From NCBI GenBank assembly GCA_019454045.1, contig SKCR01037660.1, forward strand, positions 1-64,000: a DNA stretch of 64,000 nt, given 5' to 3'. Positions 13,650-64,000 of this stretch are shown here, piece after piece (the first letter of the stretch is position 1; each line of letters starts with the position of its first letter). The notes beneath the pieces are model-generated. The model was not told the origin of the DNA and made no database searches. It saw nothing but the letters and a program-made list of their open reading frames with translations. The position numbers and the translations under genes were made by a program. The stretch comes from Zanthoxylum bungeanum. Its lineage: Eukaryota; Streptophyta; Magnoliopsida; Sapindales; Rutaceae.

Positions 13650-13660
13650 ATCTCCCACTT
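13650..13660 (-). promoter_or_regulatory. Polypurine tract
   Basis: The reverse strand reads AAGTGGGAGAT immediately before the 3' LTR start TGTTAGACAG. This is the plus-strand priming site and is typical of plant copia elements. Confidence 0.92.
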
Positions 13661-13663
13661 GGC

Positions 13664-13945
13664 CTATAGCCAGTCACTCAAGCATCTAATACCTGAACTA
13701 TGTACATGTCGCTCAAACTTTTCCCGAGGGATAGCCTTCGTCAGCGGATCTGCAATATATCCTCTGATGCGATCTTCTCGATCTTACATCGCCACGATGT
13801 ATGATCTCTCGAATCAGATGGAATCGTCGAAGAACATGTTTGGATCGTTGATGAGACCTTGGTTCCTTAGCCTGTGCTATAGCCCCGCTATTGTCACAAT
13901 ACAATGGAACGGGCTCAGCTGCTAACGGAACTACTCCTAATCCAA
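13664..13945 (-). pseudogene. RNase H C-terminal tail, frameshifted
   Basis: This continues RNase H of the young element. It includes the conserved YCDNSGAIAQA segment and the KHVLRRFHLIREI helix, then shifts frame once more near 13750 before reaching the stop at 13664-13666. The reverse complement of this region gives open frames on the + strand that are not genes. Confidence 0.85.
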
Positions 13946-15190
13946 TTAGGAATTTACGGATCCAAACTGCCTCTTTTCTGCTTCAGCTGCTGCAATGTAC
14001 TCCGCTTCAGTTGTTGAATCGGCAACAGTATCTTGCTTGGAAGATTTCCAGCTCACTGCTCCGTTATTCAAGCAAAATATGTACCCGGTTTGCGACTTAA
14101 AGTCGTCTCTGTCGGTTTGGAAACTTGCATCAGTATACCCAGATACCTCAAGTTCTCCATCTCCATAGATTAAGAAAACATCCTTAGTTCTTTTAAGATA
14201 CCTAAGGATATTCTTAACCGCCATCCAGTGATCTTGTCCTGGATCGGCCTGATATCGACTGCACATGCTCAAAGCATAGGACACATCAGGTCGTGTACAT
14301 ATCATGGCATACATGATCGATCCGACTGCCGAGGCGAACGGAGTCCGACTCATGTTGTCTCTCTCATCTTGTGTTTTAGGACACATGTCCCTAGATAGAA
14401 AGACGCCATGTGATGTTGGCAACAGTCCCTTCTTGGACTGATCCATGTTGAATCTCTTCAACACTTTATCAATATATGTACTCTGGGAGAGTCCAAGTAG
14501 CTTTCTAGATCTATCCCGGTAGATCTTTATTCCTAGAATAAAAGCTGCTTCTCCCAGATCTTTCATGGAGAATTTCAATGAAAGCCAAGCTTTCACCGAC
14601 GTTAACATGGGAATGTCATTGCCTATTAGCAATACATCGTCGACATAAAGGACAATAAAAGTCAGTGCACTCCCACTAACCTTCTTATACACACAAGGAT
14701 CATCTACGTTTTGAATGAAATCATATTCTTTTATGACCTCATCAAAACGTTGGTTCCATGACCTCGATGCTTGCTTCAGTCCATAAATGGACCGATTTAA
14801 CTTACAAACCTTGTTTGCAAGTCTTGGTGCGATAAAACCGTCAGGTTGTTGCATATAAACATCCTCCAACAGGTTTCCGTTAAGGAAAGCGGTTTTAACG
14901 TCCATCTGCCATATTTCGTAATCGTAATATGCAGCTATCGCAAGCATTATCCGAATGGATTTAATCATGGCAACGGGTGAGAAAGTTTCGTCATAATCAA
15001 CTCCAAGTTGTTGACGATACCCCTTCGCTACAAGCCTAGCTTTGTACGTTTGAACGTTGCCATCCATGTCTGTCTTCTTCTTGAAGACCCATTTGCATCC
15101 AATAGGCTTTACGCCTTCTGGTGCATCAACCAGTGTCCAAACTTGGTTGGTATACATGGAATCCATTTCGGCTTCATGGCTTCTTGCCAT
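13946..15190 (-). CDS. Reverse transcriptase and RNase H (414-codon open segment)
   Basis: The segment opens in the conserved copia region that precedes RT (NQVWTLVDAPEGVKPIGCKW, residues 15-34). It carries the RT motifs MDVKTAFLNG (96-105), YGLKQA (136-141) and the catalytic YVDD (182-185). RNase H follows with TDASF and the TEAEYIAA segment near residue 400. The C-terminus shifts out of frame at about 13960, and the rest of RNase H continues in another frame down to 13664. It copies element RNA into DNA inside the particle. The overlap with the upstream segment reflects a frameshift, not a separate gene. Confidence 0.94.
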   Translation of the reverse strand: MARSHEAEMDSMYTNQVWTLVDAPEGVKPIGCKWVFKKKTDMDGNVQTYKARLVAKGYRQQLGVDYDETFSPVAMIKSIRIMLAIAAYYDYEIWQMDVKTAFLNGNLLEDVYMQQPDGFIAPRLANKVCKLNRSIYGLKQASRSWNQRFDEVIKEYDFIQNVDDPCVYKKVSGSALTFIVLYVDDVLLIGNDIPMLTSVKAWLSLKFSMKDLGEAAFILGIKIYRDRSRKLLGLSQSTYIDKVLKRFNMDQSKKGLLPTSHGVFLSRDMCPKTQDERDNMSRTPFASAVGSIMYAMICTRPDVSYALSMCSRYQADPGQDHWMAVKNILRYLKRTKDVFLIYGDGELEVSGYTDASFQTDRDDFKSQTGYIFCLNNGAVSWKSSKQDTVADSTTEAEYIAAAEAEKRQFGSVNS

Positions 15191-17193: not shown

Positions 17194-17206
17194 ACAAGCC
17201 AGTTCA

Positions 17207-17619
17207 TCAATATGCTATCATTTGAGTCCCATGGACCTCAACAGAACTACCATCAGTCATACGGGTGCGAAAGATCCTCTTCACCAACTCGTACCTCGCC
17301 ATCCGCTTATTAGTGCGGTGAAGATCTTGCAATCTTGCCATCATATTATAAGGATCCAAGTCCCTATTTTGGCGACGAAAGTGTTGAGTCATTGAAGCAA
17401 GCATAATCGACTGAGCTGTGTCACAATCATCACTGTGAGTTTTCCATAACTCCAGCTCAAGTGGCTCAGTGGGCTTAGGCCCGAGAGGTCTCTGAATAGT
17501 ATACAGTATCCTCTCTGCCCCAAGGACTATCCTTAGGTTCATTTCCCAATCAGCAAGTTTATCCCTTTAAAGACATTGTCTCCCATGATAATGTCACGGA
17601 CATTTACCTTGCTAGCCAT
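17207..17619 (-). pseudogene. Gag N-terminal part (first pieces)
   Basis: This is the start of the gag nucleocapsid precursor of the young element. The ATG at 17619 opens a frame that shifts near 17560 into the frame of the open segment 17542-17207. That segment contains gag-type helices with the words LWKTHSDDCDTAQ and ELVKRIFRTRMTDG. It ends in two adjacent stops at the next shift near 17207, after which gag continues in another frame from 17193. Gag builds the virus-like particle in the cytoplasm. The assignment rests on position and on the continuing zinc-knuckle segment; no fold can be verified here. Confidence 0.8.
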
Positions 17620-19810
17620 CTTAACTACGATAGTCCAACTATCTAGTTAACGAAAAATGGGTACAGTCAAACTGTTACAAGAAAAATAACATTTTTATTA
17701 GTCCAACTAATGTTAAAAATTGACGAAATAAATTTTTGTAAGCGCGTAAAGCTAAGTATCTGAATGAAATTGCAAACTCAATACTAGCCTCCCACTATTT
17801 TCTACAAGTCTCTAACCCTCTGTTGAGTACTCGGGAAATCCAATTTCCTAGTGGGCTAGGATCCCGTTAAATAACACACAACCTTGACTTTGGCCAACAA
17901 GTTGTATGATATTTAACTAGGTAGATCTCGAAGATCAATTGGATCCCATCCAATTCCTAGATCCGGTAGGTGGACATCCAAGTCCGAAACATATATATCT
18001 AATACATACGTCAATGTATCCAATACATTTTCCTAACCATTTCCTCTGAATCAACTAAGCCTTGGCTTTGGCACAACAAACCTAATGATTCCAGTTAAGC
18101 GGGACCCATTGACAAGGAAAGTTTCGTAATCAATGTCGATGGACAAGAAGTGATCTTGACTTTGGCCAACAAATCACAACTTGGACAGGACACCGATGTG
18201 TAACAAAACTCTCATGATTCAAACACATCCTCAATTGACAAAGGTCTTGACTTTGGCCAACAAACCAATGCCAATTTTGGATCTTGAGAAAGAATCACTC
18301 AACGGAAGGAAAATCGCTTAATATTGTTTGAGGGATTTTTCGCGTAATTGGCAACCAATTAATTTATCTTTGTTAGGTCTCTCATCATACACCCTTAAGC
18401 ATGCTTCTAAAACATCATAAAGTGCATAAAGTAAAGTAATAGTGATATACGGATGGATATATAAACAACTTGTTCCTAGAACAAATCACTCCCTTTCCTC
18501 TCCCCGCTAGCACTATTCTACTTCTACCCAATTACATAATACAATAAGAGAAACCTCATTTACATTGAGGGGAATTAGGTGAGAAGAGAATACATAGAGA
18601 TAAAGAGATAAGGCTGGACACGCAGGTCCAATTTATAAATTCCAAATTTACAATAATTTCTAAAATTACCCTTCCCTTCTAATATCCATCCGATATGCAC
18701 TATTCATACAACACATCCACATTCATTCATTCATTCAAGGCATGTTATACAACCAATCAAATCCAATTAATTAGTCTTTAATTAGGTGACAATACAATGT
18801 TCAAACAATTGTTTGCATTTGCGCGAGTCCAACTCGTTTTGAGAATAAATACATATGGTATGAATTCACGAATATATCGAACTACTCGTTAAATCCAATT
18901 TAAGTCGTATTCAATACTAATCCTATTATTTAATTCTAAATTAAATATATACACTTTTATTGTGCTTTTATAACTTAGATTCCAAATCTAGTTCTATTGG
19001 GTCTCAAAGCCCAACCAACATCTAATGTCCGTTTAATTAAAGTCCGATGGGCTTTCTATTGATTTCATTAGGCTTGGGCCTTGGTCAATGTGGGTCAAAC
19101 CCAATTTCCAAGCCCAATAAGGAATCACCCTCATTTGCCATAAAACCAATATCAAGCCCATAAGGCCCAATTAAACATAAAAGCCCATTTATTACATTTG
19201 GACTTAAATGGTGTGATTTAGGCCCATCTTGGATCCAATCCAAATGGTCCAAATCTACTTGGCCCAACCAAGCCCATTTATGACCAAATATAATAGTTTT
19301 AGGCCCAATTCCAATTTAAGCCCAATTAACTAAATTTAAAAATTCCAAATTTTACAACTTAATTAATTAAAGTGTATGTCATGATTAATCCTTTAAATCA
19401 ATATTTCCAAAATATCAAATTAATCTATTAATCATATTTTTATCTTAAATACATGTCCAACATTATTTAATCAAAAAATCAAGTCCCTAATATGTCATCA
19501 AGCATTCGGCCAAGGTGACAATATGGTTCCGATTTCGTTTTCAATCCAATCAAGTCACAAATGATCATCTCCATATTATTTCAAGTCATCCAATGTCTTA
19601 AAATTAAAAAATCATCTAGTCCTCATGCTTGCATGTATTCGGCCAAGCCACTTTGGGGTTGGAAAAATTAATCCAATTTATTTTCCATGAAATTGATGAT
19701 GTATAAACCATTTTAACATACATCTAAGCATATTCAACAAGCAAACTCATCAAATCATGCTTCAAACAATTTTCCCAAATAACATCCTAATATATTTGCA
19801 TGCTTTTAGG
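17620..19810 (-). other. Long untranslated leader of the young copia element
   Basis: The 2.2 kb between primer site and gag ATG contains no conserved protein. It holds three copies of TTGACTTTGGCCAACAA (17884, 18157, 18247) and one variant (18060). Near the primer site (19000-19330) lie about ten copies of GCCCAATT/AAGCCCAT-type words. It is collinear with the leaders at 9240-11290 and 40587-42880, so its length and repeats are features of the family. Such leaders usually hold packaging and dimerisation signals. Confidence 0.8.
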
Positions 19811-19823
19811 CTCAATGATACCA
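19811..19823 (-). promoter_or_regulatory. Primer-binding site (initiator Met tRNA type)
   Basis: The reverse strand reads TGGTATCATTGAG one base inside the 5' LTR end. TGGTATCA matches the initiator methionine tRNA complement used by most plant copia elements; the remainder deviates. Confidence 0.88.
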
Positions 19824-19824
19824 T

Positions 19825-21776
19825 TGTTGGAAATCTAATAACCATGTCCCAAGATCAAAAACCAAGCAAGATATATATAAGAATGAACTAAAGGAAGTAA
19901 TGGGGAAACAATACTCACAAAAGCCAAATGTGGATGCAATGGATGAAGCAAAAATGCTCCTATGTGCAGTGAAGATTTCGGCCAAGCAGTAAAGAGAAGC
20001 TCCAAGCTTTAGTTGATCCTTCCAAGCTCTAAGATGAGTTTCCCATAACACCTTGTATGATCCCTTGATGGTGCTAGCCAAAGATGTGTTCTTTATGTTC
20101 CAAACAAACACAAATTCTTCAAGCTTTTGCAACAAAAAACTGAAAATGGAGAGGAAGAAAACTGTCACAGTTTCGGTAATGAGAGAGGAGAGGAGGATAT
20201 GATTTTTGTTCAAAAATCAATTTATATTTATGTTATAATTATATTAAATAATAATATAAATATAACACAAACCATGCAAGCACTTAGAGGTGTCTAACAC
20301 TCAATTTCCATGCATTATCTTTGAGTGCTTTGTACACTATCTTCATGCATTGCATCTTGATTAAAAAATACAAATAATGACAAGTGTCATGTGGGCCCCA
20401 CACGTTTCCAAATGAAAGTGGGCCCACTTGCACTCACGCGTTCGGGTTCGATATTTCCGAAATATCGAGCTTACGTCGCGACGTTAATTAAATCGAATTT
20501 AAATAAATAATTGCGCCTAGCGAATTTATTATTTACGTCGCTAACGAATTAATTCTAAATTAATTCGTTTGCCCGAATAAAATCTAATTTCAATTTCGCG
20601 TCGGAATCGAATTCCGTTTATTATATCGAATATAATAATTTTACGATTAATTCTAAATTAATCGATCTCTCTCTTTATACAGTACTTTATCCAAGATAAA
20701 GTCTCTCCGTAATTAATCCAAGATTAATCGAGTTTGAATCATACGTCATCGGTGAATCTTCGGGAAGCGACCCAAGAGACCTCTAGATATGTTGGCAGTA
20801 AATCCGGTTGTCGAACTATCCGAACACGTACGTACCAAGTACTACGTTTTTACCGATTACAAGACAAGGTTAGCTTCTAGCAAAACGCCATGCCTCCCAA
20901 TTCTCTAGAAATATTCTTACTGGAATATTAGATCTATAACAGGCGTAGTATACCGTAGTATAGTGTATATCGAACCAGTATCGGATGATCACATGCTAGG
21001 GCTGGGGCTGGATAAGTGTCTGCCCCGTCCGAAACACATATCGGATGTCAAGCAACCAGTCTCTTTGAATCGGATAATCCTGACCTAGTCATATTATCCC
21101 GATGGTTGCAACCATTATAGAGTACTAGTTCTGAATCCCTCGCGATCATCATCTCCATATGTCTGAAGTGATACTTCCATCTTGACATCACATCCAATAC
21201 ACTACGATTCTCGATAAACCCAGAAGAGGTATACACAGAACTCGTTAAAGCCCTGGACCACCAAACCTAAATTTTACCGATTGTCGTAAGTACTAGCGAT
21301 GCAAATCTCAGGTTAAGATCATATGCACCTACCCTGAAGCGGACTCCCATAGACACGCAGACATACTACCAATGGGATTCCGCGGGGTCTATCCAGAGCG
21401 AAGCTGTTTTCCGTACCATCGGTAAAACACAACCTCCTACCGCACTTGCATAAGTATCCTATACTTAAATATATGAGAACTATGCCGTTGTGCCCTCACA
21501 ACATGCACGAGTGCAGTACTAGTCTATTCCGCATTATCGATGTCCAGTCTCGATAATACTACGACTAGGGATATTTAATGATTAAACCTTTATGGATTGA
21601 TACTGTCTCATATCATCTCAATCCGGAACTAATCATAGGGACTTTTACCATTTATATTTCTAAGTAAATAAATTACAAAACGGTAAAAGGCAATTTCATT
21701 ACTACATAGTTAATTTTGTACAATAATACAATATCATTTACAAAATAGTGACGCTATGGGACATTACTGTCTAACA
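19825..21776 (-). repeat. 5' LTR of the young copia element
   Basis: It is 1952 bp long and pairs with 11696-13649. It should hold the promoter and the RNA start, but no TATA box can be assigned with confidence in such AT-rich sequence. The hairpin array lies at about 20448-20733. Confidence 0.95.
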
Positions 21777-28225: not shown

Positions 28226-28240
28226 TGGCATCGAGAGCAA
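28226..28240 (+). promoter_or_regulatory. Primer-binding site
   Basis: TGGCATCGAGAGCAA lies two bases after the LTR end. It is a variant of the initiator Met tRNA complement TGGTATCAGAGC. Confidence 0.8.
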
Positions 28241-29911
28241 GGTTGAAAAGTATTCTAATCCTTCTCTTTTTCATTTAAAGTTACTGTTTTTAATATGTTT
28301 ATATGAGTTATAAATATTGATATGCATATTTAGATGAGTAGCCACAAAATAATATTCATGTGATGAATGGTTATTGTTTTTCATGTGATGAATGGATTTT
28401 GCATTGGTCGTAAATTTTTTCCGGCTCTTATTTTATTGTTGGTTTTGATTTTTGGATGTAAGGCCATAAGGCCAATTTTTTGCAATTGTTGTAATTTTTA
28501 TTTTCCAATGTAAATATTTCAATTGTTGTAATTTGGAACACCGAAGTCGCAAAAGGAACCAACACCACCTTGGAGTGTGATTTGAAGACCAAGGGATGCC
28601 TTGGGTATTTTTGTACTAATTAGATTAGTATAGGAAAAATAAGAGTTCGGTCAATGCAAATTTGTTTTGTTATATGTATGTTTAATTCGAATTATTTGAA
28701 TAACATGTCATATAGCTTAGGGTGCCTACTTTTTGCATTTCACATGCCATAACATGCTTTAGATGCATTGTCATTATAGACATGAAATATGATTTTATGT
28801 GATTTAAAGTGTTTAAACTAGAATATGATATGCATGGAAAAACAATTAATTGGATTAATTGGTTTTAAGGTTTAAAATTTGAATTATAATATATTGGGCT
28901 TAATAAGTGCATAATAAATTCCATTGGTATATAGGATGGAAACCCGGACATAAATTCCATAGCCAAATCTGAATGGACGGTAATGTGGTCTGCACTCGGG
29001 ATACAATTCCACGTACCATTGGATTTTATAACGCACTAAGATTAATTAAATAGTTTAATATAAATCTTGACCATTTTAGGATTCTAAAATTTTAAACCAA
29101 TTAGTGTTCTAGTATTTTAAAAGTTCAAATATAATAGGTTGCTAATACCACTCTAATTAAATTAGTTTAATTGAGTATTACAATTAGTAGAGACTAATGG
29201 AAATTAGTGATACAATTTTTAAGAGTTAAAATTAGTTAGGTCACTAATAGTGAACTAGTGTAAATAAGAGTTATGATTAAGCCACCATAAATTTATTCAC
29301 ACTAGTTAAATTAAAATATTAGATATTTTATAATTAGAAACCTTAATTTTAAAATAGTGAGTGGGAGAGGGATATACGAAAGTATATCCCGCGATCTCTA
29401 TTGTTAGTCCGAAAACGTGAGATTCAAAAGGCACCTCGAGACGGCTTTTCTTTCTTCCCCCTATGGATGGTGTCCATTTTGGGTGAATATCAGGTATGGA
29501 TTCCGAGAGGATAGGGATTCTAGATGTATCTTGTGAACTGACCTACCCTATGGCGGCACTTCACTTGTTAAGTCCAAGGATCCTAAAACGGCAGGTCACA
29601 CTCACAAAGGAATAATTAACTGTTAATGAAATTCCTTGATTGAATCAAACGATAGTTGGTTAATATAGGAATAAGAGTTATTCTTTTATTTATTAATCAA
29701 CTAATATTGTCTCGATCTATCATGCAAGTACTTGACCTACCCTACAGCGGCACTTACTTGTGGGATAATAAATTTCTGTGGCATAGTAATTCTCTTAGGT
29801 TTCTAATTTGTTACTAATGGTCTATGCATCATGTTTAATTTTATGCCAAAATTGTTTGATGATTTTAATATGCGAGAAATGTTAAATGCATGTTTATTTC
29901 ATTTTTCAGCC
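28241..29911 (+). other. Leader of the forward copia element
   Basis: This 1.7-kb non-coding leader runs up to the gag ATG. It contains the 95-bp shared module at 28926-29020 and two copies of a phrase close to ACCTACCCTAYRGCGGCACTT near 29540 and 29735. A pyrimidine-rich TTTTTCAG directly precedes the gag start and could be a splice acceptor, but that is only suggestive. Confidence 0.7.
28926..29020 (+). other. 95-bp shared module, copy 1 (in copia leader)
   Basis: This aligns without a gap with four other copies in the window (47983-48077 and 62251-62345 reversed, 52851-52945 and 59052-59146 forward). By hand count, about 85 of 95 positions match the copy at 47983 and about 83 match the copy at 52851. 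Flanking sequence is unrelated. Invariant cores are GGATGGAAACCCGGACATAA and CTCGGGATACAA. GGTA at the start can pair with TACC near the end, and CCCGG (module 18-22) with TCGGG (71-75). Its function is unknown. Confidence 0.85.
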
Positions 29912-30123
29912 ATGGTTTCTCCGATTATTTCAATACTTTCTAATGACAAATTAACGGGAGAAAACTTTGTTAAGTGGAAAAGTAACATGAATGATATCCT
30001 GGTATGTGAAGACCTAAAGTTTTTCCTGACGGAGGAGTGTCCTCCCGAGCCGGCCAGAAATACTGGCCAAGCTGTGCGCGATACCTACCAGAAATGGGTC
30101 ACAGCTAATGAGAAAGCCCGCTG
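29912..30123 (+). pseudogene. Copia gag N-terminus, interrupted by a solo LTR
   Basis: The ATG at 29912 opens a gag frame beginning MVSPIISILSNDKLTGENF, with the FVKWKSNMNDIL segment typical of plant copia gag. The frame stays open to 30123, where the solo LTR begins, and gag resumes at 31828 after the LTR. The N-terminal domain normally drives particle assembly. The ORF could be extended upstream to 29831 without a stop, but the start at 29912 fits the family length better. Confidence 0.82.
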
Positions 30124-31822
30124 TGTTGGACAATTATGACCCATAGCATCAGCTAAAGGACATGGTGTTCTTGTACAAAATTAACTATATGACAAAGGAA
30201 ATTGCTCTTTTATCATTTGTAATTGGATTACCGCGATATATATAAATGATAAAAGTCCATATGATTAATACCGGATTAATAAGATATGAGACTGTATTAA
30301 TCCATGTAAGGTTTAATCATTAAATATCCCTAGTCGTAGTATTATCGAGACTGGACATCGATAATGCGGAATAGACTAGTATTACACTTGTGCGTGTTAT
30401 GGAAGCGTAACGTCATAGTTCTCATATATTTGGGTATTAGATACTCATGCAAGTGTAACAGGAGGTTCTGTTTACCGATGGTACAGAAACAGCTTCGCTC
30501 GGGATAGACCCCTCGGAATCCCATTGGTAGTATGACTATGTGTCTATGGGAATCCGAATCAGGGTAGGTGTATTTGGTCTTAACCTGAGACTTGCATCAC
30601 TAATACTTGCGAAAATCAGTATACTTTGGTATTGGTCATCCGGGGCTTTAACAGGTTCTGTGTGCGCCTCTTCTGCGTATACTGAGAATCATAGTGTATT
30701 GGGTCTGATGTCAAGATGGAAGTATCACTTCAGTCATATGGAGATGATGATCACGCAGGGATACAGAACTGGTACTCTTAAGTACTGCAGTCATCGGGAT
30801 AATATGACTAGGTCATGATTATCCGATTATAGAGACTAGTTTCCAATGATCCGATATATGCTTCGTACGGGGCAGACACAATTCCAGTCCCAGACTAGCA
30901 TGTGACATCCGATATTGGAACGTACACTACGCCTGACAAAGATCTTGTATTCCGCAGAAGAATATTTCTGGAGAATTGGGTAGGCACGGTGCTTTTCTAG
31001 AAGCCAACCATGTCTTGTAAATCGGTAGGAACATGGTACCGGGTACGCACGTGTTTGGATAGTTCGATGACCGTATTTACTGCCAACATATCCAGGGATC
31101 TCTTGGGTCGCTTCCCGAAGATTCACCGATGAGATTTGACTCGAACAAAATTAATCTGGGATTAATTACGGTAAGAATTAATCTGGGATTAATTATCAGA
31201 GAAAGAATTAATCAAGGATTACTTTCGTCGAGAATTTATCTGGGATTAAATTCGTCGAGAAGAGAGAACGCGATTAATTTGGAATTAATCGGTAAAATAA
31301 ATTTAATAGTTAAATTGGATTTTTCTATTTAATTTATTTATTTGGGATAAAATAATATATCGGATATATTAATTGAAATTAGATTTTAATGCGGAATTAA
31401 AATTGGATTTTAATTCAAGCGAATGAATTAATTTAGAATTAATTCATAAGCGACTTTAGTAATAATATTGCGAGACATTATTATTTAATTAAATTGGATT
31501 TAATTAAGTCACAATGGTAATTCGTTTAATTCGGAATTAAACGAACCCGAGCCCGAGCGAAGTTGCGTGTTGGATTGTCCGACTTAAATTTGGAATTTAA
31601 AGTGGGGCCCACCAACTTACATCAAATGTCTACACAAGTGATGAAAGTTGTTATTAGTTGAGAAAAAGCTTAGATTGCTTTTGACACACTCAAGCTAATT
31701 CCAACACACAAACTAAGTATAAATTAATTGGTCAACTTTGGAAGTGAGCACTAGTTACTATTCACAACAAAGGAACAAAAATCACTATTAGACGATCTTG
31801 GCATGTTCTATGAACACTAACA
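30124..31822 (+). mobile_element. Solo copia LTR with target duplication, inserted in gag
   Basis: This 1699-bp LTR of the main copia family begins TGTTGGACAATTATGACCC and ends ATGAACACTAACA. It is flanked by CGCTG (30119-30123) and CGCTT (31823-31827), which match at four of five bases. Gag sequence of the host element continues across the site, so this is a clean insertion followed by LTR-LTR recombination that removed the interior. The ORFs inside (for example 30540-30818 and 30836-31126) are LTR shadows. Confidence 0.92.
31149..31545 (+). repeat. Hairpin array with 3-nt spacers in the solo LTR
   Basis: The perfect inverted repeats are: AATTAATC-TGG-GATTAATT (31149-31167 and 31176-31194), CGATTAATT-TGG-AATTAATCG (31271-31291), AATATAT-CGG-ATATATT (31354-31370), GAATTAAAAT-TGG-ATTTTAATTC (31394-31416), ATGAATTAATT-TAG-AATTAATTCAT (31423-31447), TTAATTAAAT-TGG-ATTTAATTAA (31485-31507) and TTCGTTTAATT-CGG-AATTAAACGAA (31521-31545). 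Two imperfect ones lie between. Arms are 7-11 bp and the spacer is always three bases. Confidence 0.93.
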
Positions 31823-46136: not shown

Positions 46137-46704
46137 TGTGGGACACAGAAACTGGGTGACGCATGATGTCCTGGGCTCGCGGCCCGGTGGGAGTACGGAG
46201 TAGCCCACGGGGACTAAACCGGAGAATAATGGAGTCGCCACCCGGTGTGAACCGGGATAAAGATTGAAGGCCGCACTCACCCCTCGCAAGGGAATACCTC
46301 AAACCGTTGGGTTCGGAATGGTCCCTCACTTATGCCACTTGTAATGAAATTATTTGTGCAATAATTTAACCAAGCCTAAGCAACACATTTCCAAGAGTAT
46401 TCTACTTTTAAGTTCACATGCATGAAAGTAATCATCATAATGGCGAACATGCAATAGCACACGGCAATCTCATGAACATACTTCGATCATATAATGCGGA
46501 AAACAAAGAATTCCAAATGCAAAATAAATGACTAATCATTCTTGAAAATGAACAATCTGAATAGGCTAAATCATGTTTGAATACCATCTCATGAACACAT
46601 CAAACAGATAAACGCAAGGATACAATTAATGTGATTGATTACATGATATAATAGAAATCACCTAAGAAATAATTATGCATGACATGTGATTAAAAGGACT
46701 CAGA

Positions 46705-46860
46705 TCAGTGTATTCGCGTTCGTGTAGCGTTCGTAAACACGTTCGAACGGTAAACAGAAGGTTCGCGTTCGTATAGCATTTGATAACGTGTTCGAACGGG
46801 ACCAGACAGAAAATATGCGTTCGTGCGGTGTTCTGAAACGCGTTCGAACGGGGTTACAAC
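46705..46860 (-). repeat. Three CpG-rich repeats of about 50 bp
   Basis: Each contains GCGTTCGTR at its start and CGTTCGAACG or a close variant at its end. The copies are at about 46711, 46759 and 46818. The same three occur in the other LTR at about 60811-60960. These words stand out from the AT-rich surroundings. Confidence 0.85.
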
Positions 46861-46942
46861 AGTGACCTCCAAAATGCAGTAAACAACATGACACATACAT
46901 GAACGGATGAATAGATGACATCTAATAAATAATAACGGGCTA

Positions 46943-47885
46943 AAAGGCGCGGCAAAGTATCGTGGTAAAGGTAGACCGTAGGCTTTTTATCCCCCCAAAT
47001 GGAGGACCTTTAATCCGACTTACTAAGCCCATGCGCAATGCAACATGATGCATGATTATGAAAGAAGATGACATACAAAGAAAAACGAATAACGTAATGA
47101 AAGGCGCGGCGAAGTATCATGGTAAAGGTTCTTTAACCCCTCTAAATGGAGGACCTTTAATCCAACTTACTAAGCCCATGTGCATCACATCATAATGCAT
47201 ATAAAAATAAAGAAAACCATATCGAACTTCGTATACCCGATTGAACATATCTCACATTCAACCGAATATACATCATCCGGCGCGGCGAAGCATCGTGGTA
47301 AAGGATTTTAACCTCTCAAAATAGAGGACCTTTAATCGCACTTACTAAGCCCATGCGCTAATAACACAATGCATATAAGAATTAAAGACAACAATATCGG
47401 ACTTTGTATACCCGATTGAACGTATCTCACATTCAACCGAATATACATCATCCGGCGTGGCGAAGCATCGTGGTAAAGGATTTTAACCTCTCACAATAAA
47501 GGACCTTTAATTGCACTTACTAAGCCCATGCGCTAATAACACAATGCATATAAGAATTAAAGACAACAATATCAGACTTCATATACCCGATTGAACATAT
47601 CTCACATTCAACCGAATATACATCATCTGGCGCGGTGAAGCATCGTGGTAAAGGATTTTAACCTCTCAAAATAGAGGACCTTTAATCGCAGTTACTAAGC
47701 CCATACGCTAATAACATAATGCATATAAGAAATAAGGATAACAATATCGGACTTCGTATACCCGATTGAACATATCTCACATTCAACCGAATATACATCA
47801 TCCAGCGCGGCAAAGCATCGTGGTAAAGGATTTTAACCTCTCAAAATAGAGGACCTTTAATCGCACTTACTAAGCCCATGCGCTT
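46943..47885 (-). repeat. Tandem array, six units of about 175 bp
   Basis: The phrase GGCGCGGCGAAGCATCGTGG starts units at about 46946, 47099, 47278, 47454, 47629 and 47802 (some mismatches). Each unit ends in TAAAGG, a CCTCT-loop-AGAGG hairpin, then CCTTTA, so TAAAGG and CCTTTA can close an outer stem. The other LTR has seven units. Confidence 0.9.
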
Positions 47886-47982
47886 TATCTCATCATTACA
47901 TAAACAAATAACATGCGGAAATCAAGTAGCAAATAATAAACAAATCAAAACAACATAACACGAAATATGCGCCGTTTACTCA

Positions 47983-48077
47983 AGTGGTACGTGGAGTTGT
48001 ATCCCGAGTACAGATCATACTACCGTCCATTCGGAATTGGCTATGAAATTTATGTCCGGGTTTCCATCCTATATATC
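47983..48077 (-). other. 95-bp shared module, copy 2 (in Tat/Ogre-like 3' LTR)
   Basis: In element orientation (reverse strand) this is the same module as at 28926-29020, with about 85 of 95 positions matching and no gap. It keeps GGATGGAAACCCGGACATAA, GAATGGACGG, CTCGGGATACAA and GTACCAC. The neighbours on both sides differ from those in the copia leader. Confidence 0.88.
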
Positions 48078-49758
48078 ACAAGAGGTGACACATTTTTTAT
48101 TTTATTCAAGGGCCACAATATACATCATTTTACAATTCATGCATTTTCTATCTATTCAAGGGCCGCAACATGCTTCACTCCACAATAATCATGCAAACGA
48201 AACTCAATAAATAATAAAAATACAACTGAAAATGGATGTGAAAAAATATCCTCAGGTCTAACATTTTTCGTCGACTTTGGGACTCGCGTTTCACGGTGAT
48301 CGGAAGGGTGAAAGCTCCGCAACTTTTTTGGTTCACTGGTTTGCGTTTTTCCTCGCTGTTTCGCTGCTCAAGCTATTGTTTTGACTCCGTTTTGCTGCTG
48401 TTTTGCTGCTGTATTTTGGCCACTATTTTTGGTGTTTAGGCTACTATTTTCTGTGGTTTTAGGCTACTGTTTTGCGGTTGAAGGGCTGCTATTTTTACGG
48501 TTAAAGGGGCTGTTGTTTGTGCGTTTTTTACTCACTGTTTTGGGGATTTAGGGGCTGCTTTATGGTAGTTTTGGGTTCAGTTTCGGGGACTATTTGGTGG
48601 TTACAGGACTGTTTTTTAGTGGTTACAGGGACTGTTTGAGGGCTGATTTTCGGTCGTTGCTTATTTGATCACGGGTTGGTGAGGGTTATTGTTTGTGAGC
48701 AGTCTCGACATTTGGGTTTATGAAGAGTGAGGCAGGGAACAAGGTGAGCGTGCTGGGCAGAGGGCGTGCTGGGAAGGTACGTGCCAGCATAGGGCATTAA
48801 TGTGGGCGTGTACGTGAAGTGAAGGGCCAGGTGCGTGGCTTTTGTGGCTTTGTGAAGGTTGATATGTGAGGCCGTGTGTTGCTTGATCTGTGAGGCTGGC
48901 TGGTGTACGTTGAGTTGTGATAGATGGCATTCTGTGCGTGGTGTTGAATGGGGTAAGGAGGGTTGTTGTGTGCGCAGGCAGATTTTTAAGGGTTTGTTTA
49001 GTTGTGTTTCTTTTGCCGAGAGAGAGTTAGGGTGAGGGCAGTGTGTGATTAGGGTTTATGGTTTGTTGTTTTTCTTTTTGGTCGTGTAAGAGAGTTGTGT
49101 CTTCCCCTCCCTTAGGGTTAGGATTGTTGTTGTTTATATAGTTGCAAGGTAGGGTTTGCATGGATTTGAATAGGAAGGAGACCAATTAGTGTCACACAAG
49201 GAAAATCAATTATTTGGTTGGAGACATGTCTTGGCTAGATTAGGAAGTTAGTATATTTAATTTGTATTGTTTAGGCATGATATTTGTTAAGTTAGGAATA
49301 CAATATTTTTAATTAAGAATAAAAATATTCTTGATTGGGAATATAATTTGTTGATTGATTTTAATTAGGCATGATTTTATTTAATGTTCTATTTAATTTG
49401 GTATGTGATTTAATTAATATTTTATTTAATTTGGTATATAATTTAATTAATTTGGTTGTATTTTAAGGGCCTTGGGCGTGTGGGCTTGTCTTTGGTGGTG
49501 GGCTTGGTGTGTTAGGTGTTGTGTTGGCTTGGTGAGTGGGTTTGGGCCAAGGTTAAATGGTTTGCGGTGTTTTTAGGCTAAAGGTGCTTTAAAACGGAGG
49601 TCTAACGAGTGAGCCTGGAGCTAAACAAGCGAATAAAAATCTAACGAAATACCAATTTCCTTCTGAAGACCGTTTCCCGCGACTTCCTCGACTTAAAAGG
49701 TAGTGTCTCCAAATAAGACTCATCATAGGGACTCACATGCAAAAATGCAGTGCCTACA

Positions 49759-51348: not shown

Positions 51349-51931
51349 TGTAGGCACTGCATTTTTGCATGTAATTCCCGATTATGAGCCTCGTACGGAG
51401 GCACTACCTTTTTATGTTGTGGAAGTCGCGAGAAATGGACGTCGGAATGGAAGAATTGAGAATTGATGTTTTTTTGGATTTGATTCACTCGTTTTTCTTC
51501 GGGTTTGTTCGTCGGACTTCCGTTTAAAAATCATTATTGGCCTAAAACCCCGGCGAGCAATATTTCTTTGGCCCAAACACCAAACCCACGCCCATAAGCC
51601 CACCAGAACCAACCAAATCACTCACCAAGCCCACCAACACCAAGGCCCACGCCCATTACACATAATTACCTCTCCTCTAACTATTCAAACAACCAAAATA
51701 ACCTTCTACCATGCATACCCCACACATTTGACCTCAAATTTACCTTACCCTTTATTTTCCAAGCCATTTAATTCACTAACCCCACACCATTGACAAAGCC
51801 ACTCCTAATTAATGTCACCCCCTCAAAGTCAAAAGAAACCACCAATCATCCTTCCATTTTCAACAAAGCATGCCATCCTAATTAATGATATCCATTAATG
51901 CTAGCCTACCCAATAGAGGCCCCCCATTTGC

Positions 51932-51940
51932 CTATATAAA
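51932..51940 (+). promoter_or_regulatory. Possible LTR TATA box
   Basis: The sequence CCTATATAAAGAACC occurs about 580 bp into the LTR and is kept in the 3' LTR at about 57955. It is the clearest TATA-like word in this LTR, and it is GC-flanked, unlike the many chance AT runs. No experimental support is available. Confidence 0.5.
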
Positions 51941-52850
51941 GAACCATTTGCTCTCTTGAAACACTAGCACATACTTAGCATCTTCGTAACACAAACACAT
52001 CAAAAAGACTCCCCTTGTTCACGCCATTCAGCCCTCATTTCAGTCTCCTAAGGCCACGCCAATCCAACAACAAATAAGCAGCATTCACGCCAAGCAACTC
52101 TCATATTCTGCCATTCCACTGCTCACACCAAACACCCTTCACTGCATCCCTCTCTCACGCCAATTCAAGACCCCAAACCAGCCCCTGAAACACGTCCAAC
52201 CAACCCTCATTCTGCCCCCACTTCTCACGCCTAAACTGCCATATACAGCATCCCACTGCTCACGCCAATCAACCCCTGCAAACCAGCCCCTGAACACGCC
52301 AAATACTCTCACAAAACTGCATTGAAAACCCACCTTACTGCCCTCCAAACTGTATCATAAAACAGCCTCATAATTACCGAAAATTACACCCAAAACATTG
52401 GCCAAAATCGTCAAAACAGTGAACAAAAAACTGCACTTGGAAATCCTTGAATAACCGCATAAAATAGCAGCCCAAAACCCCTCAAACCACCACAAAACAG
52501 CCCCTTAACACACCTGAAGCAGTGACCAGAAAATACAACAGAAATTGCAGCGAAACGAAGTGGAAACAGCGGAGGAAAACCTTCGAACCAGCGAACCGGA
52601 TGAGTCACGGAGTGTTAGCCCTTTCGACGGCCGCATAACGCACTTCCAAGAGACGACACAAAAGGTTAGACCTGAGGTCATATGTTATATATTTTCTTCG
52701 CATGAATTAGTGATTTAGAGAGCATGTTACTTATTTTCCTCGCATGAACTAGAGATTTAGAAAGTATGTAATTTACTTTATTTCGCATGAATATTGTAAA
52801 TTAATATATGATGTGATTCCGCGGTGAATGGAATATGTGTTCCTTCTTGT

Positions 52851-52945
52851 GGTATATTGGATGGAAACCCGGACATAAATTCTGTAGCCGAATCCGAATG
52901 GAAGGTATTATGGTTTGCACTCGGGATACAATGCCCCGTACCACT
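52851..52945 (+). other. 95-bp shared module, copy 3 (nested element 5' LTR)
   Basis: It aligns ungapped with 28926-29020, about 83 of 95 positions matching. Here the outer stem can extend to GTGGTA with TACCAC. Confidence 0.87.
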
Positions 52946-53452
52946 TGAGAGATTCACATATTTCATTTCATCCAAACTTGTATTCGAGCATGATTAGGCC
53001 ATTAGAAGGTTATTTTATTTTTAGTATGACTTAGTTATTTACCATTCACAATAGGAATTTAAGTTATGTCATGTTTAGGTCGTTACTTATTTAATATGAT
53101 TAATGTGTGATATCAGGTGTTTGCCGTTATGAAAATTTACTTTTGAAGCATGCAAACTTAGATTTAGGCCTTATAGGAATTTAGATTATTTTTGCCAATA
53201 TATGTTGAGTAGACTTGGTTAAAATTGCACAAATCCATTCATTACAAATGACATAAGTAAGGGACCATTCCGAACCCAACGGTTTGAGGTCTTCCCTTGC
53301 GAGGGGTGAGTGTGGACTTAAATCATTTTCCCGAGTCACACCGGGTGGCGACTCCATTTTATTTCTCCGATTTAGTCCCCCGCGGGCTATTCCGTACTCC
53401 CAACCGGGCCGCGAGCCTGGAACAGCATCGCCGATTTCTGTGTCCTACAGTC

Positions 53453-53471
53453 TGGCGACTCCACTAGGGAT
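53453..53471 (+). promoter_or_regulatory. Primer-binding site (Tat/Ogre type)
   Basis: TGGCGACTCCACTAGGGAT lies three bases after the LTR end, matching the site of the surrounding element except for one base. By family knowledge this resembles the arginine-tRNA primer site of Tat/Ogre elements. Confidence 0.78.
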
Positions 53472-57370: not shown

Positions 57371-58150
57371 TGTAGGCACTGCATTTTTGCATGTAAGTCC
57401 CGATGATGAGCCTCGTACGGAGGCACTACCTTTTTATGTCGTGGAAGTCGTGAGAAATGGACGTCGGAAGGGAAGAATTGAGAATTTATGTTTTGTTGGA
57501 TTTGATTCGCTCATTTTGCTTCGGGTTTGTTCGTCGGACTTCATTTCAAAATCATCCATGGCTTAAAACCCCCGCGAGCAACATTTCCTTGGCCCAAACA
57601 CCAAACCCACGCCAATAACCCCACCAAAACCAACCAAATCACACACCAAGCCCACCAACACCAAGGCCCACGCCCATTACACACAATTACTTTTCCTCTA
57701 ACTATTCAAACAACCAAAATAACCTTCTACCATGCATACCCCACACATTTGACCTCAAATTTACTTTACCCTTCATTTTCCAAGCCATTTAATTCACTAA
57801 CCCCACACCATTGACAAAGCCACCTCCTAATTAATGTCACCCCCCTCAAAGTCAAAAGAAACCACCAATCATCCTTCCATTTTCAACAAAGCATTCCATC
57901 CTAATTAATGATATCCATTAATGCTAGCCTACCCAATAGATGCCCCATCATTTGCCTATATAAAGAACCATTTGCTCTCTTGAAACACTAGCACATACTT
58001 AGCATCTTCGTAACACAAACACATCACAAAGACTCCCCTTGTTCACGCCATTCAGCCCTCATTTCAGTCTCCTAAGGCCACGCCAATCCAGCAACAAATA
58101 AGCAGCATCCACGCCAAGCAACTCTCACATTCTGCCCTTCCACTGCTCAC

Positions 58151-58460
58151 GCCAAACACCCCTCACTGCAGCCCTCTCTCACGCCAATTCAAGACCCCAA
58201 ACCAGCCCCTGAAACACGTCCAACCAACCCTCATTCTGCCCCTACTACTCACGCCTAAACTACCACATACAGCAGCCCACTGGTCACGCCAAACACCCCT
58301 CACTGCAGCCCTCTCTCACGCCAATTCAAGACCCCAACCAGCCCCTGAAAACGTCCAACCAACCCTCATTATGCCCCCACTTCTCACGCCTAAACTGCCA
58401 TATACAGCAGCCCACAGCTCACACCAAACACCCCTCACTGCAGCCCACTGCTCACGCCAA
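58151..58460 (+). repeat. LTR-internal tandem duplication (137 bp)
   Basis: GCCAAACACCCCTCACTGCA starts at 58151 and again at 58288, with a third partial unit near 58421. The 5' LTR has a single unit at about 52120-52260. Confidence 0.88.
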
Positions 58461-59051
58461 TCAACCCCTGCAAACCAGCCCCTGAACACGCCAAATACCC
58501 TCACAAAACTGCACTGAAAACCCACTTTACTGCCCTCCAAACTGCATCACAAACCAACCTCATAATTACCGAAAATTGCACCCAAAACAGTGGCCAAATC
58601 GTCAAAACAGTGAACAAAAAATTGCACTTGGAAATCTTTGAATAACCGCATAAAATAGCAGCCCAAAACCCCTTAAACCACCACAAAACAGCCCCTTAAC
58701 ACACCTGAAGCAGTGACCAGAAAATACAACGGAAATCGTAGTGAAACGAAGTGGAAACAGCGAACAAAATAACAAAACAGCGGAGGAAAATGTCAAACCG
58801 GATGAGTCACGGAGTGTTAGCCCTTCCGACTGCCGCATAACACACTTCCAAGAGACGACACAAAAGGTTAGACCTGAGGGCATATGTTATATATTTTCTT
58901 CGCATGAATTAGTGATTTAGAAAGCATGTTACTTATTTTCCTCGCATGAACTAAAGATTTAGAAAGTATGTAATTTACTTTATTTCGCATGAATATTGTA
59001 AATTAATATATGATGTGATTCCGAGTGAATGGAATATGTGTTCCTTCTTGT

Positions 59052-59146
59052 GGTATATTGGATGGAAACCCGGACATAAATTCTGTAGCCGAATCCGAAT
59101 GGACGGTATTATGGTTTGCACTCGGGATACAATGCCCCGTACCACT
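59052..59146 (+). other. 95-bp shared module, copy 4 (nested element 3' LTR)
   Basis: Same as 52851-52945 apart from one base (GGACGG here, GGAAGG there). Confidence 0.88.
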
Positions 59147-59650
59147 TGAGAGATTCACATATTTCATTTCATCCAAACTTGTATTCGAGCATGATTAGGC
59201 CATTAGAAGGTTATTTTATTTTTAGTATGACTTAGTTATTTACCTTTCACAATATGAATTTAAGTTATGTCATGTTTAGGTCGTTACTTATTTAATATGA
59301 TTAATGTGTGATATCAGGTGTTTGCCGTTATGAAAATTTACTTTTGAAGCATGCAAACTTAGATTTAGGCCTTATAGGAATTTAGATTATTTTTGCCAAT
59401 ATATGTTGAGTAGACTTGGTTAAAATTGCACAAATCCATTCATTACAAATGACATAAGTAAGGGACCATTCCGAACCCAACGGTTTGAGGTCTTCCCTTG
59501 CGAGGGGTGAGTCCGGCCTTAAATCATTTTCCCGGGTCACACCGGGTGGCGACTCCATTTTATTTCTCTGGTTTAGTCCCCCGCGGGCTATTCCGTACTC
59601 CCAACCGAGCCGCAAGCCTAGAACAGCGTCGCCGATTTCTGTGTCCTACA

Positions 59651-60209: not shown

Positions 60210-60810
60210 GACTGTGGGACATAGAAACTGGACGAGGCATGTTGTCCCGGGCTCGCGACCCGGTTGGGAGTACGGAGTAGCCCGCGGGGGACTAAACTGG
60301 AGAATAATGGAGTCGCCACCCGGTGTGAACCGGGACAAAGATTTAAGGCCGCACTCACCCCTCGCAATGGAATACCTCAAACCGTTGGGTTCGGAATGGT
60401 CCCTTACTTATGCCATTTGTAATGAAATGATTTGTGCAATAATTTAACCAAGCCTAAGCAACATATTTCCAAGAGTATTCTACTTTTAAGTTCACATGCA
60501 TGAAAGTAATCATCATAACGGCGAACATGCAATAGCACACGGAAATCTCATGAACATACTTCGATCATATAATGCGGAAAACAAAGAACAACCTAGACAT
60601 AATGAAAATTCCAAACGCAAAATAAATGACTAATCATGCTTGAAAATGAACAATCCGAATAGGCTAAATCATGCTTGAATACCATCTCATGAACACATCA
60701 AACAGATAAACGCAAGGATACAATTAATGTGATTGATTACATGATATAATAGAAATCACCTAAGAAACAATTATGCATGACATGTGATGAAAATGACTCA
60801 GTTCAGTGTA

Positions 60811-60960
60811 TTCGCGTTCGTGTAGCGTTCGTAAACGCGTTCGAACGGTAAACAGAAGGTTCGCGTTCGTATAGCGTTTGATAACGCGTTCGAACGGGAC
60901 TAGACAGAAAATATGCGTTCGTGCGGCGTTCTGAAACGCGTTCGAACATGGTTACAGCAG
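60811..60960 (-). repeat. Three CpG-rich repeats in the 5' LTR
   Basis: Counterpart of 46705-46860. Here the words AACGCGTTCGAAC are better preserved (CG instead of CA or TG at several places). Confidence 0.85.
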
Positions 60961-61039
60961 TGACCTCCAAAATACAGTAAAAAACATGACACAAACATGA
61001 ACGGATGAATAGATGAAACCTAATAAATAATAAAGGGCT

Positions 61040-62155
61040 AAAAGGCGCGGCAAAGTATCGTTGTAAAGGTAGACCGTAGGATTTTTATCCCCCCAAATGG
61101 AGGACCTTTAATCCGACTTACTAAGCCCATGCGCAATGCAACATGATGCATGATTATGCAAGAAGATGACAAACAAAGAAAAGCGAATAACGAAATGAAA
61201 GGCGTGGTGAAGTATCATGGTAAAGGTTCTTTAACCCCTCGAAATGGAAGACCTTTAATCCAACTTACTAAGCCCATGAACATCACATCATAATGCATAT
61301 AAAAATAAAGAAAACCATATCGAACTTCGTATACCCGATTGAACATATCTCACATTCAACCGAATATACATCATCCAGCGGCGAAGCATCATGGTAAAGG
61401 ATTTTAACCTCTCAAAATAGAGGACCTTTAATCGCACTTACTAAGCCAATGCGCTAATAACACAATGCATATAAGAATTAAAGACAACAATATCGGACTT
61501 CGTATACCCGATTGAACGTATCTCACATTCAACCGAATATACATCATCCGGCGCGATGAAGCATCGTGGTAAAGGATTTTAACCTCTCAAAATAGAGGAC
61601 CTTTAATTGTACTTACTAAGCCAATGCGCTAATAACACAATGCATATAAGAATTAAAGACAACAATATCGGACTTCGTATACCCGATTGAACGTATCTCA
61701 CATTCAACCGAATATACATCATCCGGCGCGGCGAAGCATCATGGTAAAGTATTTTAACCTCTCAAAATAGAGGATCTTTAATCGCACTCACTAAGCCAAT
61801 GCGCTAATAACACGCATATAAGAATTAAAGACAACAATATCGGACTTCGTATACCCGATTGAACGTATCTCACATTCAACCGAATATACATCATCTGGCG
61901 CGGTGAAGCATCGTGGTAAAGGATTTTAACCTCTCAAAATAGAGGACTTTTAATCGCACTTACTAAGCTCATGTGCTAATAACACAATGCATATAAGAAA
62001 TAAGGATAACAATATCGGACTTCGTATACCCGATTGAACATATCTCACATTCAACCGAATATACATCATCCGATGCGGCAAAGCATCGTCGTAAAGGATT
62101 TTAACCTATCAAAATAGATGACCTTTAATCGCACTTACTAAGCCCATGCGCTTCA
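61040..62155 (-). repeat. Tandem array, seven units of about 175 bp
   Basis: Units start at about 61040, 61197, 61374, 61550, 61725, 61895 and 62070 with the GGCGCGGCGAAGCATCGTGG phrase or variants. There is one unit more than in the partner LTR. Confidence 0.9.
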
Positions 62156-62250
62156 TCTCATCATTACATAAACAAATAACATGTGGAAATCAAGTAGCAA
62201 ATAATAAACAAATTAAAACAACATAACATGAAATATGCGCCGTTTACTCA

Positions 62251-62345
62251 AGTGGTACGTGGAGTTGTATCCCAAGTACAGATCATACTACCGTCCATTC
62301 GGAATCGGCTATGAAATTTATATCCGGGTTTCCATCCTATATACC
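62251..62345 (-). other. 95-bp shared module, copy 5 (Tat/Ogre-like 5' LTR)
   Basis: The LTR partner of copy 2. In element orientation it starts GGTATATAGGATGG and ends CCACGTACCACT. Here the outer TGGTA-TACCA pairing is intact, whereas copy 2 has GATA. Confidence 0.88.
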
Positions 62346-64000
62346 ATGAGAGGCGACACATTTTTCATTTTATTCAAGGGCCACAACATACATCATTTTA
62401 CAATTCATGCATTTTCTATCTATTCAAGGGCCGCAACATGCTTCACTCCACAATAATCATGCAAACGAAACTCAATAAATAATAAAAATACAACTAAAAA
62501 CGGATGTGAAAAAATACCCTCAGGTCTAACCTTTTTCGTCGACTCTCGGACTCGCGTTTCACGGTGATCGGAAGGGTGAAAGCTCAGCAACTTTTCCGGT
62601 TCACTGGTTTGTGTTTTTCCTCGCTGTTTCGCTGCTCAAGCTACTGTTTTGACTCCGTTTCACTGCTATTTTGCTGTTGTATTTTGGCCACTGTTTTTGG
62701 TGTTTAGGCTACTATTTTCTGTGGTTTTAGGCTACTATTTTTGTGGTTGAAGGGCTGCTGTTTTTACGGTTAAAGGGGTTACTGTTTGTACGTTTTTTAC
62801 TCACTATTTTGGGGATTTAGGGGCTGCTTTAGGGTAGTTTTGTGTGCAGTTTCGGGGACTGTTTTGGTGGTTACATGGACTATGTATTAGTGGTTACAGG
62901 GACTGTTTGAGGGCTGATTTTCGGTCAGTTGCTTATTTGATCACGGGTTGGTGAAGGTTATTGTTTGTGAGCAGTCTCGGCATTCGGGTTTATGAAGCGT
63001 GAGGCAGGGAGCAAGGTGAGCATACTGGGCAGAGGGCGTGCTGGGAAGCTATGTGCTGGCAGAGGGCATTAATGTGGGCGTGTACGTGATGTGAAGGGCC
63101 AGGTGCGTGGCTTTTGTGGCTTTGTGAAGGTTGATATGTGAGGCCGTGTGTTGCTTGATCTGTGAGGCTGGCTGGTGTGCGTTGAGTTGTGATAGATGGC
63201 GTTCTGTGCGTGGTGTTGAATGGGGTAAGGAGGGTTGTTGTGTGCGCAGGCAGATTGTTAAGGGTTTGTTTAGTTTTTTTTCTTTTGCTGAGAGAGAGTT
63301 AGGGTTAGGGCAGTATATGATTAGGGTTTATGGTTTGTTGTTTTTCTTTTTGGCCGTGTAAGAGAGTTGTGTCGTCCCCTCCCTTAGGGTTAGGATTGTT
63401 GTTGTTTATATAATTGCAAGGTAGGGTTTGCATGGATTTGAATAGGAAGGAGACCAATTAGTGTCACACAAGGAAAATCAATTATTTGGTTGGAGACATG
63501 TCTTGGCTAGATTAGGAAGTTAGTATATTTAATTTGTATTGTTTAGGCATGATATTTGTTAAGTTAGGAATACAATATTTTTAATTAGGAATAAAAATAT
63601 TCTTGATTGGGAATATAATTTGTTGATTGATTTTAATTAGACATGATTTTATTTAATGTTTTATTTAATTTGGAATATGATTTAATTAATATTTTATTTA
63701 ATTTGGTATATGATTTAATTAATTTGGTTGTATTTTAAGGGCCTTAGGCGTGTGGGCTTGTCTTTTGTGGTGGGCTTTATGTGTTAGGTGTTGTGTTGGC
63801 TTGGTGAGTGGGTTTGGGCCAAGGTTAAATGGTTTGCGGTGTTTTTAGGCTAAATGTGCTTTAAAACGGAGGTCCAACGAGTGAGCCTGGAGCTAAACAA
63901 GCGAATAAAAATCTAACGAAATACTGATTCCCTTCCGACGACCGTTTCCCGCGACTTCCTCGACTTAAAAGGTAGTGTCTCCAAATGAGACTCATCATAG

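Follow-up and report, generated by a model that had tools for sequence, protein, structure and literature searches.

A 95-bp noncoding module common to a Ty1/copia family and Ty3/gypsy-like LTRs in Zanthoxylum bungeanum

Copia and gypsy, the main two superfamilies among plant retrotransposons, are generally assumed to have separate histories in their noncoding regions. The locus studied here raises the question of why one 95-bp sequence, called the module below, occurs both in the leader of a copia element and in gypsy-type LTRs of a single stretch of DNA (the window: positions 1 to 64,000 of contig SKCR01037660.1). The analysis revealed that the module is real, widespread and noncoding, and that it is common to one Ty1/copia family and Ty3/gypsy-like LTRs. 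Its five copies in the window belong to three elements, copia B (+ strand), G1 (- strand) and G2 (+ strand):

28926..29020, + strand: module inside the internal leader of copia B, a relic (comparison, pattern search, BLAST)
47983..48077, - strand: module in the G1 3' LTR (comparison, pattern search)
52851..52945, + strand: module in the G2 5' LTR (comparison, pattern search)
59052..59146, + strand: module in the G2 3' LTR (comparison, pattern search)
62251..62345, - strand: module in the G1 5' LTR (comparison, pattern search)

The coordinates, strands, 95-bp length, absence of gaps and 83-85 matching positions given in the preliminary description were all right on recount. Each copy was gapless and lay in the sense orientation of its element, and the copia copy was identical to the four others at 85, 83, 84 and 83 of 95 positions. 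A two-block pattern search hit exactly five places in the window and none in 100 shuffles. Two blocks had been called invariant, which was an overstatement, as each carried one change in the 62251-62345 copy (GGATATAA, CTTGGG). BLAST of the copia region gave a single significant match of 94 bp both to the G2 LTR (E 1e-31) and to the G1 LTR (E 8e-30), with next-best matches at E 0.08 or worse. The reported absence of similarity in the flanks held for copia versus gypsy-type elements; G1 and G2, being related, were also alignable over about 60 bp upstream of the module, so the sharp module boundary exists only between copia and gypsy-type hosts.

The covariance models of Rfam 15 gave no match in the window at the gathering score and none up to E 5 in 28800-29150, so that the module matched no model of a known RNA family (ribozyme, 5S, tRNA-like), and a tRNA search gave no match to it either. 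The module pattern was found in no viral contig, no bacterial or archaeal genome contig and no plasmid DNA. The antisense frame across the module was open in 51 of 52 copies; an antisense protein gene was rejected, codon periodicity being absent (22, 23, 22).

The copia host is a relic. Its LTR ends at 28223 and gives way to a primer-site-like stretch, behind which a leader of 1.7 kb runs up to a gag frame that starts at 29912; no second LTR was found within the window. Two of its features are:

28226..28238, + strand: primer-site-like TGGCATCGAGAGC (TTGGCATCGAGAGC), just past the copia LTR end (28223)
29912..30139, + strand: first part of the gag frame of copia B, which an LTR-like insertion at 30124-31612 breaks (family assigned via relatives)

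The primer-site-like TTGGCATCGAGAGC is presumably a variant of the initiator-Met type. Relatives of copia B encode gag PF14223 (L009 and L012) and RVT_2 PF07727 (L009), which bears out the assignment of the host to a true Ty1/copia family. LTR pairs were detected in three of four of these loci (L009-L011), with none found in L012. Several side observations were made on copia elements. The insertion at 30124-31612 is a lone LTR-like sequence with about 81% relatedness to the LTR of copia A, an element at 11696-21776 (- strand) with frames of 701 and 424 aa and LTR regions of about 2 kb that are 98.6% identical; copia A is apparently the youngest element in the window. One copia B leader (L023:1110-1595) contains a partial tandem duplication with two modules. 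The motif GGGCTTA(A/G)TAAGTGC occurs at 28896-28910, where it precedes the copia module by 15 bp, and again in the 175-bp tandem repeats of G1 (47330-47877 and 61426-62145, - strand), whose nearest site follows the G1 module after about 105 bp; eight matches at up to 3 mismatches were counted against 0.01 expected, with a pattern written after the sighting.

The gypsy-type hosts G1 and G2 are nested, G2 being inserted in the internal region of G1 with a 5-bp target duplication (ACGAC):

46137..49758, - strand: G1 3' LTR with 175-bp tandem repeats
51349..53449, + strand: G2 5' LTR (TGTAGG...CCTACA), target duplication ACGAC at 51344-51348 and 59651-59655
53453..53470, + strand: G2 primer binding site TGGCGACTCCACTAGGGA
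57371..59650, + strand: G2 3' LTR, TATA-like box at 57957
60213..64000, - strand: G1 5' LTR, running past the window end, with a TATA-like box at 63412

The two G2 LTRs are 95.5% identical over 2098 aligned positions. The G1 primer site at 60209-60192 is the same as that of G2 with one G for A, and we take this site (TGGCGACTCCACTRGGGA, behind the LTR) to fit tRNA-Arg. Between G1 and G2, identity amounts to 85.6% at the U5 end, 79% over 782 bp of the internal start and 85% over 134 bp before the 3' LTR. A Pfam scan of four G1/G2 frames of at least 120 aa gave nothing above the cut-off and one FlxA match below it. A relative, L064, adjoins an LTR (L047) with a module at 86%, and its internal frame, itself without a Pfam match, shows 58% identity over 126 aa with the portion of P0079 that lies downstream of the Retrotrans_gag domain (PF03732) of that protein. 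No RT or integrase was seen, and the scanned G1/G2 frames showed none. On account of the link between L064 and the P0079 gag, together with the TGGCGACTCCACTRGGGA primer site, a Ty3/gypsy, Tat/Ogre-like origin of G1, G2 and their relatives is likely. The earlier label "gypsy-type" needed support, which came from the one relative linked to a gypsy gag and not from the scanned G1/G2 frames themselves; that the module is common to a Ty1/copia family and to elements linked to a Ty3/gypsy gag was supported. Tandem 44-bp units (CTCGGGAACAAAGCCC...) were also noticed in G2 at 56132-57128.

The abundance of the module was assessed in the source assembly (3.96 Gb, 51709 contigs). A preliminary search for the copia module returned 2045 places and one for the G1 module 1163, which are candidates and not counted copies, and 40 of each were scored. 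Among the best 40 G1-module places, identity was 99-100%, so the G1 family has probably spread recently. The best 40 for the copia module included 39 non-window places, of which 27 were read, and all 27 were copia B leaders. Two further samples were chosen by sequences other than the module. For gypsy-type LTRs, a 361-bp U5/PBS query was used and 29 non-window loci were read of 39 scored; the module was full or nearly full in 22, represented by its 3' part in one (L044) and absent in six. For copia B, a 201-bp query below the module was used; apart from the window and its near-duplicate L074, 38 loci were scored and 26 of these were read, and the module was whole in all 26 leaders.

An antisense-frame profile used as a probe recovered 16 short ENA contigs with the module, some perhaps from the species of the window. 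Ten of them align to gypsy-type or G1 loci well past the module (61-136 aa). For P0099, P0100, P0101, P0103 and P0105 the best alignment spans 30-36 aa, about the module, and for P0102 it spans 50 aa; P0099 and P0100 have an upstream flank in common (84% over 19 aa).

The occurrence in unrelated hosts could be explained by a small independent transposon, foldback or SINE-like, inserted into both families. The G2 copies have terminal inverted GTGGTA/TACCAC and are bordered by CTTG on both sides, as such an insertion might be, yet no matching duplication exists at the copia copy, no tRNA or Rfam family is matched, and the module-less LTRs that were aligned or printed have other sequence at this place and no empty site. 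MITE or SINE membership was rejected on the grounds of the missing copia duplication, empty site and tRNA match, and the transposon explanation as a whole is regarded as very improbable. The module-less LTRs are L038, L043, L046, L051, L061 and L062, and in all of these except L046 repeats of the GCATGA(A)TTAG...GTTTAG kind are present where the module would sit.

The conservation of the module was compared with that of its surroundings. In the 22 gypsy-type loci the module was 86-98% identical to the query, as against 67-89% for 255 bp downstream and 72-92% for 400 bp upstream, and it was closer to the query than either aligned flank in each of the 22; the downstream flank aligned over most of its length in about half of the loci and the upstream flank in pieces only, and the U5/PBS region, being the basis of choice, was 87-97% identical. 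In the 26 flank-chosen copia B leaders the module (90.5-96.8%) was no better conserved than its flanks (92.1-100% for the 79 bp below and 85-98% for the sequence above). Extra conservation in copia B had appeared in the first, module-chosen sample only and was gone in the flank-chosen one. The module is therefore conserved beyond its surroundings among gypsy-type LTRs and between the superfamilies, and not within the copia family.

Copia and gypsy-type modules were 76.8-93.7% identical to each other. The mean was 85.8%, below the means of 90.7% among copia copies and 92.3% among gypsy-type copies, so the exchange appears older than the sampled copies and the idea of a recent one was not upheld. 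Toward the G1 module, copia and gypsy-type copies had mean identities of 85.8% and 84.5%, respectively. In a module tree for which the copia copies had been picked by their likeness to the window copy, copia formed one clade (support 0.907), partly by construction. In the tree with the flank-chosen copia sample, the two G1 copies fell among copia with no support (0.007).

These data bear on the possibility that the module is a passenger, that is, a piece of a gypsy-type LTR brought into the copia B leader by template switching and functionless there, its conservation among gypsy-type LTRs having a cause of its own. Such an origin fits the lack of extra conservation in copia B and the grouping of copia modules, save for the two unsupported G1 copies among them. 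Gypsy-type LTRs are, moreover, visibly chimeric; L044 (1198-1258), a chimeric LTR in which the module is reduced to its 3' part, suggests that they recombine around it. A mere passenger would nevertheless hardly be expected to be whole in every one of the flank-chosen copia B leaders, the copia-gypsy match stops where the predicted outer stem stops, and the module has further flanks in some other contigs. The passenger explanation is considered rather doubtful but a serious rival. Pieces of G-type LTRs were found in four of 27 further copia B loci (L017, L022, L024 and L027), where they never adjoined the module.

The position of the module in its hosts was also compared. The distance from the TATA-like box to the module is 1.1 kb in G2 (box at 57957), 1.1 kb in G1 (63412) and 1.4 kb in copia B (27511, picked from three matches). 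The module is downstream of the box in each. Several splice-like sites were noted around it:

28240..28243, + strand: donor-like AG/GT behind the copia primer site (GT in 29 of 30 matching rows; putative splice use)
29902..29914, + strand: acceptor-like TTTTTCAG/CC, immediately followed by the gag ATG at 29912-29914 (AG in 26 of 27 matching rows; putative splice use)
58862..58879, + strand: donor-like AAAAGGTTAGACCTGAGG in the G2 3' LTR, on the upstream side of the module (putative)
62517..62535, - strand: donor-like stretch, same as that of G2, in the G1 5' LTR (putative)

Among 37 copia B rows, the donor-like AAGGTTGA behind the primer site was matched in 30 and the acceptor-like TTTTTCAG before the gag ATG in 27, with GT and AG kept as listed; four of the rows are duplicates of other loci, and a fuzzy match is in itself biased towards kept sites. 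In gypsy-type rows, a donor-like AGGT(A/T)AGACCTGAG was present no more than 420 nt above the module in 22 of 26, at a distance of 123-183 nt in 20 rows and of 300 and 381 nt in two. One of the other rows has ATGT for AGGT and three have no donor-like site. Splicing may occur at these sites.

A position in the leader, and in unspliced RNA only if the splice-like sites work, would also suit a packaging, dimerisation or reverse-transcription signal of the genomic RNA instead of an export site. The Gags concerned, on the other hand, are of different Pfam families (PF14223 in copia B and PF03732 in the gypsy relative P0079), which makes a common Gag-binding site less expected, and a signal of this type is judged quite unlikely.

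The ability of the module to form an RNA structure was evaluated by folding and by comparison of copies. The predicted folds of the five copies have a common outer stem, a CCCGG/TCGGG stem and an innermost hairpin, and the GGTA/TACC and CCCGG/TCGGG pairings suggested in the preliminary description are parts of this predicted fold. Helix 4 is whole in the copia and G1 copies. The folds predicted for both G2 copies lack its outer half, columns 38-42 being unpaired and columns 32-37 paired instead. None of the five copies was significantly more stable than its shuffles in single-sequence folding (z from -1.43 to +0.33).

For the comparison, 52 gapless copies were aligned (25 copia and 27 gypsy-type). 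This alignment, A2, left out the window duplicates L001 and L033, the identical rows L003, L019, L021 and L029, the half module of L044 and a 93-nt copy in L060. Helices 1-5 were paired in 90.6, 87.7, 96.5, 98.3 and 99.4% of cells, respectively. Pair 40-67 was AU in 34 copies, GC in 10, GU in 8 and broken in none; pairs 5-100 and 17-89 were broken in 26 and 25 of the 52. When the 3' letters were shuffled, cells with a double change numbered 5.0 compared with 13 observed, and 93.6% of cells were paired compared with 94.0% (0 of 500 shuffles in both cases), with no excess in the number of pairs with a double change (3 vs. 2.4) or of pair types (21 vs. 20.4). Sliding the partners by +2 gave 32 double-change cells, more than the 13 of the structure, though with only 32.7% of cells paired. 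RNAalifold kept 21 pairs on the 52 copies and dropped helix 2, with a covariation term of only -0.96. The covariation amounted to little beyond a single clean A-U/G-U/G-C series at pair 40-67.

When each mutation was counted once, compatible changes showed no excess (7 vs. 6.6 expected, 18 vs. 16.2 and 19 vs. 18.8 pooled). Randomly relocated mutations destabilised the structure more than the observed ones in a comparison that counts sequences and not events. Variants present in at least three copies kept the pair in 10 of 13 cases and the rest in 9 of 29 (p 0.007, relatedness ignored). With the flank-chosen copia sample and a structure derived solely from the copia copy, variants in at least three copies were paired in 13 of 23 cases against 8 of 37 for rarer ones (p 0.007) and 6 of 23 for singletons (p 0.036), and in the inner helices shared variants were paired in 10 of 16 against 5 of 22 (p 0.016), relatedness being ignored in all three tests. 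In a control in which the partners were shifted by 1-3 columns, pairing was seen in 6-11 of 23-29 cases. Such a pattern would be expected if dead copies decay freely and working elements keep the fold; the argument is weakened by the relatedness of copies and by the fact that many pairing-compatible changes are C to T, which gives G-U pairs for free. Overall, a hairpin is plausible as a model, and pairing in the inner stem is suggested by the statistics. The proposed structured RNA was supported only in part, by the common stems and the suggested inner-stem pairing, against which stand the lack of a stability excess, the different fold of G2 and the null result of the unique-mutation test.

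The last of these results would suit an element acting at the DNA level, namely a site for a transcription factor or chromatin protein (an enhancer or internal promoter) kept in unrelated leaders. The mutations counted once ignore pairing, the conserved blocks ATGGAAA and GATACAA lie mostly outside the helices, and one G1 copy of the module contains a TATAAAT string. A DNA site would, however, not readily account for the element-sense orientation of all five window copies downstream of a TATA-like box, nor for shared variants that favour pairing. A DNA-level role is considered rather doubtful but, like the passenger, a serious rival.

The reading that we prefer, tentatively and short of an even chance, is that the module serves as an RNA signal recognised by some host factor. 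It would be a cis-acting noncoding element of the transcribed leader that works as RNA, folding into an irregular hairpin of about 95 nt with an outer GGUA/UACC stem followed by a CCCGG/UCGGG stem, an inner stem CCRUAGCC / GGU..UAYGG and a UCC-GAAU-GGA cap, and its conserved A-rich internal loops would bind a host protein. Because of the donor-like site upstream of the module and, in copia B, the acceptor-like site beyond it, spliced mRNA would lack the module and full-length genomic RNA would contain it. Its task would then most likely be the handling of unspliced genomic RNA, with export by a host factor, similar to that mediated by a constitutive transport element (CTE), ahead of packaging; a host factor is favoured because it, unlike Gag, is common to copia and gypsy elements. 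The module may have crossed between the lineages at some past time and have been carried with the copia B leader ever since. Splicing, the RNA-level function, the export role and any direction of transfer are what we infer from these comparisons. If the module is kept in both superfamilies, this would point straight to a common host factor.

A literature search, with most subscription journals outside its coverage, turned up no noncoding module that copia and gypsy elements of plants have in common. The Cassandra TRIM elements, which reportedly carry a 5S rRNA sequence in the LTR, resemble the present case in having a short, conserved, RNA-gene-like sequence in plant LTR elements; they differ in that the module has no Rfam match at the gathering score and is common to two superfamilies. 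Conserved noncoding motifs of plant LTR retrotransposons are likewise the subject of a work on Sireviruses (PMC2829016), to which those motifs are limited by its title, and they are set beside the module here by description.

The closest functional parallels are the CTE of MPMV/SRV, the RTE of mouse IAP and the MTE of MusD, all of them structured cis-acting RNAs that belong to LTR elements and are recognised by host factors on unspliced RNA, as is proposed for the module. The CTE is outlined as a long stem-loop with two internal loops (PMC7551171), and the RTE and MTE as elements that export full-length transcripts (PMC12786077). They are 150-175 nt long compared with the 95 nt of the module, which in addition sits in a 5' leader and in a plant host; the likeness is drawn by description and alongside the lack of an Rfam match. 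That the module is the plant counterpart of a retroviral CTE, a host-read hairpin with whose help unspliced retrotransposon genomes leave the nucleus and which moves as a unit between Ty1/copia and Ty3/gypsy elements, is a suggestion by analogy and an unlikely one. According to PMC12786077, direct studies of LTR-retrotransposon RNA export are lacking for plants, and introns are present in Ogre and EVADE. A candidate element that is compact and has many natural variants would bring this question within reach of tests. As regards the movement of such an element, the primate retrovirus SERV-K is described as having taken over the MER11 transport element by recombination, with export activity measured (PMC11379458). 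Whereas both partners in that case are retroviruses and the activity was measured, the module concerns Ty1/copia and Ty3/gypsy-like elements and is known from sequence alone; what the two cases have in common is a noncoding cis element of one retroelement family that was taken over by another and kept.
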